Source: Candidatus Aenigmatarchaeota archaeon
Lineage (GTDB): Archaea; Aenigmatarchaeota; Aenigmatarchaeia; CG10238-14; SCSR01
NCBI GenBank assembly: GCA_016181005.1
Contig: JACPAE010000001.1
Location: 62,001 to 126,000, forward strand
Direction of reading: 5' to 3'
DNA: 64,000 nucleotides
Part shown: piece by piece, positions 7,013 through 13,788 of the stretch
How the letters are laid out: the number at the start of each line of letters is the position of its first letter
Numbering within the stretch: position 1 is the first letter of the stretch
Position numbers and translations under genes: made by a program
The notes under the pieces: generated by a model
Databases searched by the model: none
Seen by the model: only the letters and a program-made list of their open reading frames with translations
Told to the model about the DNA's origin: nothing

Positions 7013-7579
7013 CTAAGGTGTGATCCTCTGTATTGTATAAAAAGTAACTCCAGCCTCTTTGTCCACCACAGCCCAAACCATGGTTGCCCTTATGTTATGT
7101 GCAAGTCTTACTGCTCTAGACATTTCTGGTAATGAAAATGCAGACTCTTCTGCAACAGCATGCACAACGAATTTCGTATGTTCATGGGCAGCTTTGGGAC
7201 CTCTTTTCAACTTAACGCCCCTCTCATAGACACGGAAATGGCAACCGAACTTGTACCCAGTTTTTACCAAATATCCACGCTCCCGCAAGTCACGGTAAAC
7301 AATATATTGCGGATGGAATTCGTGCACCTTCTCGCTTCCTATTCTCATCAAATCCTTGAAATCGAGTTTCTTGTTTTTTCCAGCATCCTTTACAGTGACT
7401 TTCAGCTTGCCTTTTTCGACAAGATAAACAGCCTCCACCAAGTCCATTTCAAGCCTGGTAGATTCCTCTTCTGGCAGGGGCTTTCCGTAACCGGCTTCAT
7501 CATAAAGCTCGACACTATCCTTTCCCCATATAATTACGCGCTCTTCTAAGAGCTCTCCTTCCCAAACTTTCTCTGCCAT
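7013..7579 (-). CDS. endA: tRNA-splicing endonuclease EndA, catalytic Lys replaced by Ala
   Basis: The 188-residue single-unit EndA has the N-terminal domain (LVEAVYLVEKGKL) and the C-terminal nuclease domain (YIVYRDLRERGYLVKTG). It cuts bulge-helix-bulge introns out of precursor tRNA. Against the Methanocaldococcus enzyme (Tyr115, His125, Lys156), Tyr118 (FRVYERG) and His134 (EHTKFVV) are conserved, but the position of Lys156 (AHSVRKK) reads Ala165 (AHNIRATM). The alignment is gap-free here by eye. The gene lies between S17e and the four-intron tRNA-Phe gene. A one-domain enzyme would act as an alpha4 or alpha2beta2 tetramer, and a second subunit could exist outside the window. Confidence 0.9.
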   Translation of the reverse strand: MAEKVWEGELLEERVIIWGKDSVELYDEAGYGKPLPEEESTRLEMDLVEAVYLVEKGKLKVTVKDAGKNKKLDFKDLMRIGSEKVHEFHPQYIVYRDLRERGYLVKTGYKFGCHFRVYERGVKLKRGPKAAHEHTKFVVHAVAEESAFSLPEMSRAVRLAHNIRATMVWAVVDKEAGVTFYTIQRITP

Positions 7580-7624: not shown

Positions 7625-7767
7625 TGGGACAGGAGAGATGAATTCGGTATTTTGTACCTTTGAACTCTCGACACACCGCTCTTCAGGCGGTTTAGAGCCT
7701 TTATGGTTGCTCTCCTTAACCTCATCAGATCGGGCTGAGCTTACAGTAAATTAATTATTACTGTCCC
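7625..7767 (-). tRNA. tRNA-Phe (GAA) interrupted by four BHB introns
   Basis: The 143-nt gene yields a 74-nt tRNA after removal of introns 7741-7758 (between nt 9 and 10), 7716-7730 (18/19), 7692-7707 (26/27) and 7640-7659 (58/59). Mature parts: acceptor GGGACAG/CTGTCCC, TA, D stem GCTC/GAGC with loop AGCCCGGGA, anticodon stem ACCGC/GCGGT with loop CTGAAGA (GAA), variable GTGTC, T arm GAGAG-TTCAAAT-CTCTC, discriminator A. Each junction forms a bulge-helix-bulge with 4-bp central helix and 3-nt bulges: ACAG/CTGT with TAA and AAG; AGCC/GGTT with CGA and AAG; AGAG/CTCT with CAA and AAA; GTTC/GAAT with AAA and TCA. Every cut falls after the second bulge base. G18-G19, the G15-C48 pair and T54-T55-C56 are all restored. 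The usual 37/38 site has no intron. A copy of GGGACAG sits in the leader at 7773-7779. Confidence 0.9.
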
Positions 7768-7816
7768 AGTCTCTGTCCCTAGTTCAACGATAGTATTTCT
7801 ACTGTTTTAAATTTTA

Positions 7817-8497
7817 CTATCGTCCAAACCTATACTTCAACCCTTCTTTAACTATGTAATAGAGGACGTCAAGAACCACCCTAGTGCCCCGTCTTACGCC
7901 GCTTTTCCTGTGGTAGCTTACCTTGACCTCAACCTGTGACATCTTCAGACGATTCTTAAGTGCACCTATCAAAATCGAATTGTCGACAATGTAACCGCCT
8001 AGAATGCTGTCTTTTATCTTTTCCACAGCCTTCTTGTCAAACCCCATCAAGCCGCAGTTCGTGTCCTTGAGCTTTGTCCCGAAAAGAATGTTGAATGCTG
8101 TCCTCCACACAAAATTTCCCAATTGGTGCCTGAAAGGGACAAGGCTCCAGTCCCTGTACCCCATGACAAAGTCCGCGCCCGCTTCTTCCAACTCGCGCAA
8201 GATCTTCAAAGCCTCCTGCGGCGCATACTGGTTGTCTGCGTCTATCAGAATCAAGTAATCAAAACTCGGATAGTGCTTCAGTATATGCTCAAGTCCTGTC
8301 TTTAACGCCTCCCCCTTTCCCTTGTTCCTCTCGTGCCGTATGCAGATTGCGCCGCTATCAACTGCAACATCATAAGTATTGTCCTTAGAACCGTCGTCAA
8401 TTACAACAGGCTTTAATCCTATCTTTGAAACCTGCCTTACTATGCCTGCTATGTGCTTGCTTTCGTTGTAAGCGGGTATCAGTGCAAAATTTACCAT
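7817..8497 (-). CDS. Family 2 glycosyltransferase (dolichyl-phosphate mannose synthase-like)
   Basis: The 226-residue protein has the GT-A nucleotide-sugar motifs: LIPAYNES at the start, VVIDDGSKDNT, the metal-binding YLILIDADNQY near residue 87, and the NCGLMGF acceptor region. It most resembles dolichyl-phosphate mannose/glucose synthases without C-terminal membrane helices, which make polyprenyl-linked sugars for N-glycosylation. AglB and the sugar genes lie 45 kb away. The gene starts divergently from NMD3 with a 47-base shared upstream region. Donor and acceptor cannot be read from sequence. Confidence 0.85.
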   Translation of the reverse strand: MVNFALIPAYNESKHIAGIVRQVSKIGLKPVVIDDGSKDNTYDVAVDSGAICIRHERNKGKGEALKTGLEHILKHYPSFDYLILIDADNQYAPQEALKILRELEEAGADFVMGYRDWSLVPFRHQLGNFVWRTAFNILFGTKLKDTNCGLMGFDKKAVEKIKDSILGGYIVDNSILIGALKNRLKMSQVEVKVSYHRKSGVRRGTRVVLDVLYYIVKEGLKYRFGR

Positions 8498-12931: not shown

Positions 12932-13016
12932 GCCACGGTAGCTCAATTGGCAGAGCACCCGCCTTGTATTACATCAGGCAAGCGGAAGGTTGCGAGTTCA
13001 ATTCTCGCCCGTGGCT
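12932..13016 (+). tRNA. tRNA-Thr (TGT) with 12-nt canonical intron
   Basis: Acceptor GCCACGG/CCGTGGC, D stem GCTC/GAGC, anticodon stem CCCGC/GCGGA (27-43 is C-A), T arm GCGAG-TTCAATT-CTCGC, discriminator T as in archaeal tRNA-Thr. The 12-nt intron 12969-12980 lies at 37/38 and gives loop CTTGTAA (anticodon TGT). Its bulge-helix-bulge has central helix CTTG/CAGG, bulges TAT and CAA, and only a 5-nt intron loop TACAT. The mature tRNA is 73 nt. Confidence 0.92.
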
Positions 13017-13678: not shown

Positions 13679-13788
13679 GAGGTCGTCGTCTAACCTGGTT
13701 CAGGATCGGTGCCTCCAGTTTTCATGGAGATCTGATACAAGATGATGGAAGAAAGCACTAGATTAGGGTTCAAATCCCTACGACCTCA
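13679..13788 (+). tRNA. tRNA-Trp (CCA) with 35-nt intron
   Basis: Acceptor GAGGTCG/CGACCTC, D stem GTCT/GGAT, anticodon stem GGTGC/GCACT, T arm TAGGG-TTCAAAT-CCCTA, discriminator A. The intron 13719-13753 lies at 37/38 and leaves loop CTCCAGA (anticodon CCA). The central helix would be CTCC/GAAG with one mismatch at C34; bulges are AGT and AAA. The intron contains CTGA (13732-13735), then a 6-nt loop, then ATGATGG (13742-13748), like a D'/C' box pair. The mature tRNA is 75 nt. Confidence 0.9.

Follow-up and report, generated by a model that had tools for sequence, protein, structure and literature searches.

The minus strand of the window (the whole 64-kb stretch of DNA analysed here) holds, at 7767-7625, a tRNA-Phe(GAA) gene made of five exons and four bulge-helix-bulge (BHB) introns. 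We consider it very likely that this is a working tRNA-Phe gene of the host and that its introns are excised by the splicing endonuclease EndA encoded at the adjacent locus; splicing itself is inferred, as no RNA data are at hand.

What is shown directly is the set of four motifs and the tRNA to which they lead. Joined in order, the five exons of Table 1 give a 74-nt cloverleaf with anticodon GAA, in which every stem (acceptor, D, anticodon and T) is paired along its full length and the D loop carries one extra nucleotide, 17a. The product keeps U8, A14, G18G19, U33, T54T55C56 and A58 and thus passes as a canonical tRNA. All four junctions share one geometry, namely a 4-bp central helix with 3-nt bulges and a predicted cut after the second bulge base, and two of the four central helices contain a single G-U pair. 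Introns 2 and 3 have inner helices of just 2 bp. The motifs also overlap, nt 11-15 belonging to both motif 1 and motif 2 and nt 20-22 to both motif 2 and motif 3, and the four BHBs therefore cannot all be complete simultaneously. An initial annotation, made from the sequence alone, had proposed a tRNA-Phe(GAA) gene with four BHB introns of 18, 15, 16 and 20 nt, none of them at 37/38, with joins at 7759/7740, 7731/7715, 7708/7691 and 7660/7639. These coordinates and lengths held exactly, as did the claims of a standard 74-nt tRNA after intron removal and of G18-G19 and T54-T55-C56 in the restored molecule. The claim of one geometry at all four junctions also held, refined by the short inner helices and the overlapping motifs, and the four-intron gene held as a reading.

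Table 1. Features of the tRNA-Phe(GAA) locus and its neighbours, in window positions; nt and intron sites follow standard tRNA numbering.
Feature	Position	Strand	Detail
Glycosyltransferase family 2, AglJ-like (below AglJ model cut-off)	7817..8497	-	upstream neighbour of tRNA-Phe
Leader GGGACAG, proposed surrogate acceptor 5' strand	7773..7779	-	pairs 7/7 with CTGTCCC (7632-7626)
Exon 1 GGGACAGTA	7759..7767	-	nt 1-9
Intron 1, 18 nt, site 9/10	7741..7758	-	BHB ACAG:CTGT, inner helix TAA:TTA
Exon 2 GCTCAGCCCG	7731..7740	-	nt 10-18
Intron 2, 15 nt, site 18/19	7716..7730	-	BHB AGCC:GGTT, one G-U
Exon 3 GGAGAGCA	7708..7715	-	nt 19-26
Intron 3, 16 nt, site 26/27	7692..7707	-	BHB AGAG:CTCT, inner helix CC:GG
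Exon 4 ACCGCCTGAAGAGCGGTGTGTCGAGAGTTCAA	7660..7691	-	nt 27-58; anticodon arm (GAA), variable loop, 5' strand of the T stem and TTCAA
Intron 4, 20 nt, site 58/59	7640..7659	-	BHB GTTC:GAAT (one G-U), inner helix GGTA:TACC
Exon 5 ATCTCTCCTGTCCCA	7625..7639	-	nt 59-73
endA, tRNA-splicing endonuclease, 188 aa	7013..7579	-	TIGR00324, PF01974 and PF02778 above cut-off

Searches of the window with ARAGORN and with Rfam RF00005 both missed the tRNA-Phe gene, which reflects a limit of those models and is therefore no evidence against it. A custom finder, which lists every possible strict BHB intron and rates the resulting spliced sequence as a tRNA, recovers exactly the same four introns. When both strands of the window were scanned with it, the locus ranked first with a score of 87.0, followed by two intronless tRNAs (81 and 79), with 66 for the next best place; the best score in three shuffled windows was 66.5. 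Two other interrupted tRNA genes lie on the plus strand of the window: a tRNA-Thr(TGT) with a 12-nt intron at 12932-13016, missed by ARAGORN and listed by the window Rfam scan, and a tRNA-Trp(CCA) with a 35-nt intron at 13679-13788, missed by both.

The host (G000) is a Candidatus Aenigmatarchaeota (DPANN) genome of 740 kb, a metagenome assembly in 5 contigs and 92% complete. A mature tRNA-Phe(GAA) from a second intact locus, together with an absence of spliced reads, had been named in the initial annotation as a refuting observation; no second tRNA-Phe was detected in this 92%-complete genome, in an inventory built from Rfam candidates. Many other tRNA genes of G000 carry BHB introns as well. 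Roughly 30 of some 42 tRNA candidates look interrupted, several of them by two introns; these counts are approximate, since relaxed motifs were worked out with a simple script and in part by visual inspection. For tRNA-Asp(GTC) (L080, G000:C5:219598-220287, minus) there is a three-intron solution, with introns in the D loop, the anticodon stem and the variable region.

The endA gene lies on the strand of the tRNA-Phe gene, 45 nt downstream of it, and is the single PF01974 match, hence the only copy detected, in the 92%-complete genome. Its product is 83-88% identical to those of its closest named relatives, which are Candidatus Aenigmatarchaeota genomes. Judged by gene count the enzyme is alpha4-like, being encoded by one short gene with N- and C-terminal domains (PF02778 and PF01974) and no detected second subunit; the oligomeric state is inferred. 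It carries a conserved insertion, GVKLKRGPKxxHEHTK, where the EndA of M. jannaschii is shorter. In nearly all sampled Aenigmatarchaeota EndAs (endA 7013-7579, L061-L100), which are single-gene, alpha4-like enzymes, the catalytic region is preceded by a lysine-rich insertion that fits GVKxxxGPKxxHEHTK. Lysine-bearing loops of other EndAs have been linked to a broad substrate range (PMC6379350), and by analogy the host loop may possibly have a similar effect.

In the family, the tRNA-Phe that adjoins endA or lies within about 1.5 kb of it has introns that vary from 0 to 3 in the relatives and shift in position. They are found at 9/10 and 18/19 in G001; at 18/19 and 26/27 in G013, the latter in a relaxed form; at 9/10 and 26/27 in G015; at 9/10, 26/27 and 39/40 in G014; at 9/10, 30/31 and 53/54 in G010; at 26/27 only in G008; at 30/31 only in G009; and at 19/20 in G003 and G007, with none in G005. 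The 13-nt intron of G003 was read by hand, the relaxed finder being one step off, and G002 has one intron in the D stem and one in the variable loop, their positions not being base-exact. The initial annotation had suggested a comparison with related genomes, and all four joins agree with the orthologues that lack the respective introns. The 9/10 intron is absent from G003, G007, G008 and G013; the 18/19 intron from G008, G010, G014 and G015, in which the sequence runs across the join without a break (GCTCAGTCCGGGAGAGC in G010 and G014, for instance); the 26/27 intron from G001, G003, G007 and G010; and the 58/59 intron, present only in G000, from all ten resolved family orthologues. All four joins are thus uninterrupted in several relatives, which satisfies the junction-intact test for archaeal BHB introns.

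Where introns are present, their helices covary. The 9/10 intron also occurs in G001, G010, G014 and G015, with compensatory changes in the inner helix (TAA:TTA, TAACA:TGTTA, CAACT:AGTTG and CACTT:AGGTG across the orthologues). The central helix at 18/19 covaries with the exon, reading AGCC:GGTT in the window, AGTC:GACT in G001 and AACC:GGTT in G013, and the inner helix at 26/27 reads CC:GG in the window, CCTT:AAGG in G008, CCAC:GTGG in G014 and CCGAT:ATCGG in G015. An EndA tree groups G000 with G001, G002 and G003 in one clade, with support too low for a firm history. A single syntenic locus carrying from 0 to 4 introns documents directly how tRNA introns are gained and lost.

The 9/10 BHB occupies nt 4-7 of the tRNA with its central helix and nt 1-3 with its outer helix, and the 3' acceptor strand would therefore be left without a partner. 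The leader, 12 nt upstream of nt 1, repeats the acceptor 5' strand letter for letter as GGGACAG. We looked for such leaders in the tRNA genes of ten family genomes, taking every gene that had been resolved and using strict BHB motifs only. A leader 7-mer that pairs with the 3' acceptor strand is present in all 11 genes whose first intron follows nt 8 or 9, vs 1 of 51 others (Fisher p = 1.1e-9; shuffled leaders 0.75%). With G-U counted, the pairing is 7/7 in ten of these genes and 6/7 in one; at least 6 pairs are Watson-Crick in 10/11, and the 7-mers start within a narrow range, 8-17 nt upstream of nt 1. Two cases were added later, both 7/7: a tRNA-Met interrupted after nt 4 and a tRNA-Lys(CTT) interrupted after nt 8. 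The later loci were chosen for a weak or middle-only Rfam match, and 0/7 other genes among them has a leader strand. Pooled, the strand is found in 13/13 genes whose intron follows nt 4, 8 or 9 (12/13 with at least 6 Watson-Crick pairs), vs 1/58 others, and the isoacceptors concerned are Phe, Asn, Lys, Arg, Ile and Met. The independent events number fewer than 13, since the five cases in Phe are orthologues of one another, as are the three in Asn; in tRNA-Phe, the strand is retained across four genera.

In the tRNA-Asn of G000 (leader GCCCCGA, exon GCCCCGG, 3' strand TCGGGGC) and in the tRNA-Arg of G013 (leader GCCCCTG, exon GCCCTTG, 3' strand CAGGGGC), the leader makes a Watson-Crick pair where the exon makes G-U, which favours selection for pairing over mere duplication. 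The leader of G014 tRNA-Ile differs from the exon yet keeps 7/7 pairing by means of a G-U, and G015 tRNA-Phe has two tandem upstream copies. The G002 tRNA-Met(CAT) (L222, G002:C6:150408-150903, minus) is interrupted within the acceptor stem, by an intron that follows nt 4, and has an intact whole-strand leader copy, AGCGGGA. We also considered whether the leader copy could be the true exon 1, followed by a longer intron. This was rejected on two grounds: G000 and G001 would have AG or AT at nt 8-9, where the tRNA-Phe orthologues without a 9/10 intron conserve UA, and no strict BHB could be fitted.

The leader pairing and its statistical association are shown, and the role of the leader is inferred. 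In the mechanism we propose, the leader of the primary transcript would pair with the 3' acceptor strand to form a surrogate acceptor stem, releasing the true 5' strand (nt 1-7) for the 9/10 BHB, in which nt 4-7 would pair with intron CTGT, and nt 1-3 together with leader nt -2 and -1 with nt 11-15. EndA would then excise the introns in an order limited by the shared nucleotides: introns 1, 3 and 4 are compatible and expected to be available first, and intron 2 conflicts with 1 and 3. The archaeal ligase RtcB would seal the exons. After splicing, the true 5' strand would displace the leader copy, allowing RNase P to cut at nt 1. We lean, with reservations, towards the view that a dedicated leader element sets the order of events, splicing and then 5' maturation, in those tRNA genes of the family whose intron consumes the acceptor 5' strand. 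The EndA cuts, the ligation and their order all remain inferences without RNA data.

Thermodynamic folding at 25 C supplies probabilities for these structures. The surrogate stem reaches 0.94-1.0 in nine of the 11 leader genes; in G014 tRNA-Phe, where it has a mismatch, the value is 0.29, and in G015 tRNA-Phe only the nearer leader copy was scored, the minimum-energy structure using the farther one. For the window gene with its leader, the surrogate stem has a probability of 0.94 and central helices 1, 3 and 4 have 0.99, 0.97 and 0.88; with the leader removed these helices drop to 0.41, 0.29 and 0.53, and the true acceptor stem stands at 0.76. Two predictions of the model mark the weak points of the mechanism. 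For the 18/19 central helix the probability stays near 0 whichever intermediate is folded, and G001 and G013 show the same, so that removal of intron 2 may need folding imposed by a protein or another register. Moreover, the surrogate stem is still favoured in the fully spliced precursor with leader (0.99), and strand exchange would thus need RNase P or modification as a driver.

Could the locus merely be a decaying pseudogene, with a normal tRNA-Phe in the missing part of the genome? The 92% completeness leaves room for such a gene. However, every stem pairs perfectly, each of the four BHBs is strict, the endA-side locus holds tRNA-Phe in most relatives, where it is often interrupted too, and no second tRNA-Phe was found in G000; we regard this explanation as very unlikely. 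Hardly more credible is a true tRNA-Phe gene with one deviant junction, 18/19 being the likeliest, where the cut falls in another register or does not rely on a strict BHB. The G-U pair in central helix 2 and its near-zero probability in the model speak for it, but the 18/19 pairing is kept by compensatory changes in G001 and G013, and the orthologues without this intron are continuous across the join, as in G010 and G014.

A third alternative concerns the leader, which could be a roleless scar left when an acceptor-proximal intron was gained by local duplication. That leader and exon strand are identical in most cases, and that G015 has two tandem copies, is in keeping with a scar. Against it stand the two genes in which the leader outpairs the exon on the 3' strand (G000 Asn and G013 Arg), the G014 tRNA-Ile leader that retains its full pairing through G-U, the narrow spacing (-8 to -17) and the persistence in Phe orthologues of four genera. 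We thus judge the scar unlikely, though less so than the other two alternatives.

The survey of 217 archaeal genomes with tRNAscan-SE 2.0 reports up to three introns per tRNA (PMC8450103), and reviews give the same archaeal maximum (PMC4033280, PMC6379350, PMC3218864), which makes the word "exceptional", used in the initial annotation, a fair one. The literature we searched, which covered few subscription papers, contained nothing relevant on four introns in one tRNA or on pairing between leader and acceptor strand. A four-intron tRNA in DPANN archaea lies one intron above the published maximum in these sources, with the proviso that splicing is inferred, and we found no description of the leader element. 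The leader strand, the neighbouring endA and the clade-wide richness in tRNA introns go beyond the initial annotation.

The closest likeness is to the Thermoproteales (Pyrobaculum, Thermofilum), whose tRNAs likewise carry several tiny BHB introns at noncanonical sites, cut by EndA (PMC8450103, PMC3218864, PMC4033280). In the same sources, however, their maximum is three per tRNA, compared with four in the window tRNA-Phe, and they are hyperthermophilic Thermoproteota with an (alpha-beta)2 EndA, whereas the window host belongs to the Aenigmatarchaeota and has one EndA gene and the leader surrogate strand. Three hBHBh' introns in the D, anticodon and T arms are known from Cyanidioschyzon merolae tRNA-Ile(UAU) and from nucleomorph tRNAs (PMC9602550, PMC4090602); unlike the present gene these are eukaryotic, with three introns of which one is at 37/38, and the relevant passages mention no leader strand. 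ARMAN-2 (Micrarchaeota) is, like the host, a small DPANN archaeon, and its epsilon2 EndA has a lysine-bearing specific loop linked to the cleavage of noncanonical introns (PMC6379350, PMC4033280); the window host instead has one single-unit EndA of 188 aa, alpha4-like by gene count, with the insertion described above. Heavy disruption of tRNA genes is thereby extended to a reduced DPANN lineage known from groundwater metagenomes, and its occurrence with a single EndA gene bears on the co-evolution of EndA type and intron spread. The leader strand, if real, would be a new cis-element of tRNA maturation and would address how the acceptor stem itself can be recruited into an intron's splice motif; annotation would gain from it as well, given that the two standard searches tried miss the tRNA-Phe gene.

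Two further observations concern tRNA genes in relatives. At class level, G056 (a single contig of 874769 bases) and G036 give few strong RF00005 matches and many long or partial ones, with fewer than ten above cut-off in G056; the strict finder resolved 0 of the long or partial loci fetched from these two genomes, and their tRNA genes are perhaps still more disrupted. The 8/9 introns of two G013 genes are alike, agtaatacgaggaa in tRNA-Arg(TCT) and agtttatagcgaggaa in tRNA-Asn (L093 / L130). The GAGG within the tRNA-Arg(TCT) intron fits the Asn exon better, which suggests that the intron was transposed between tRNAs.
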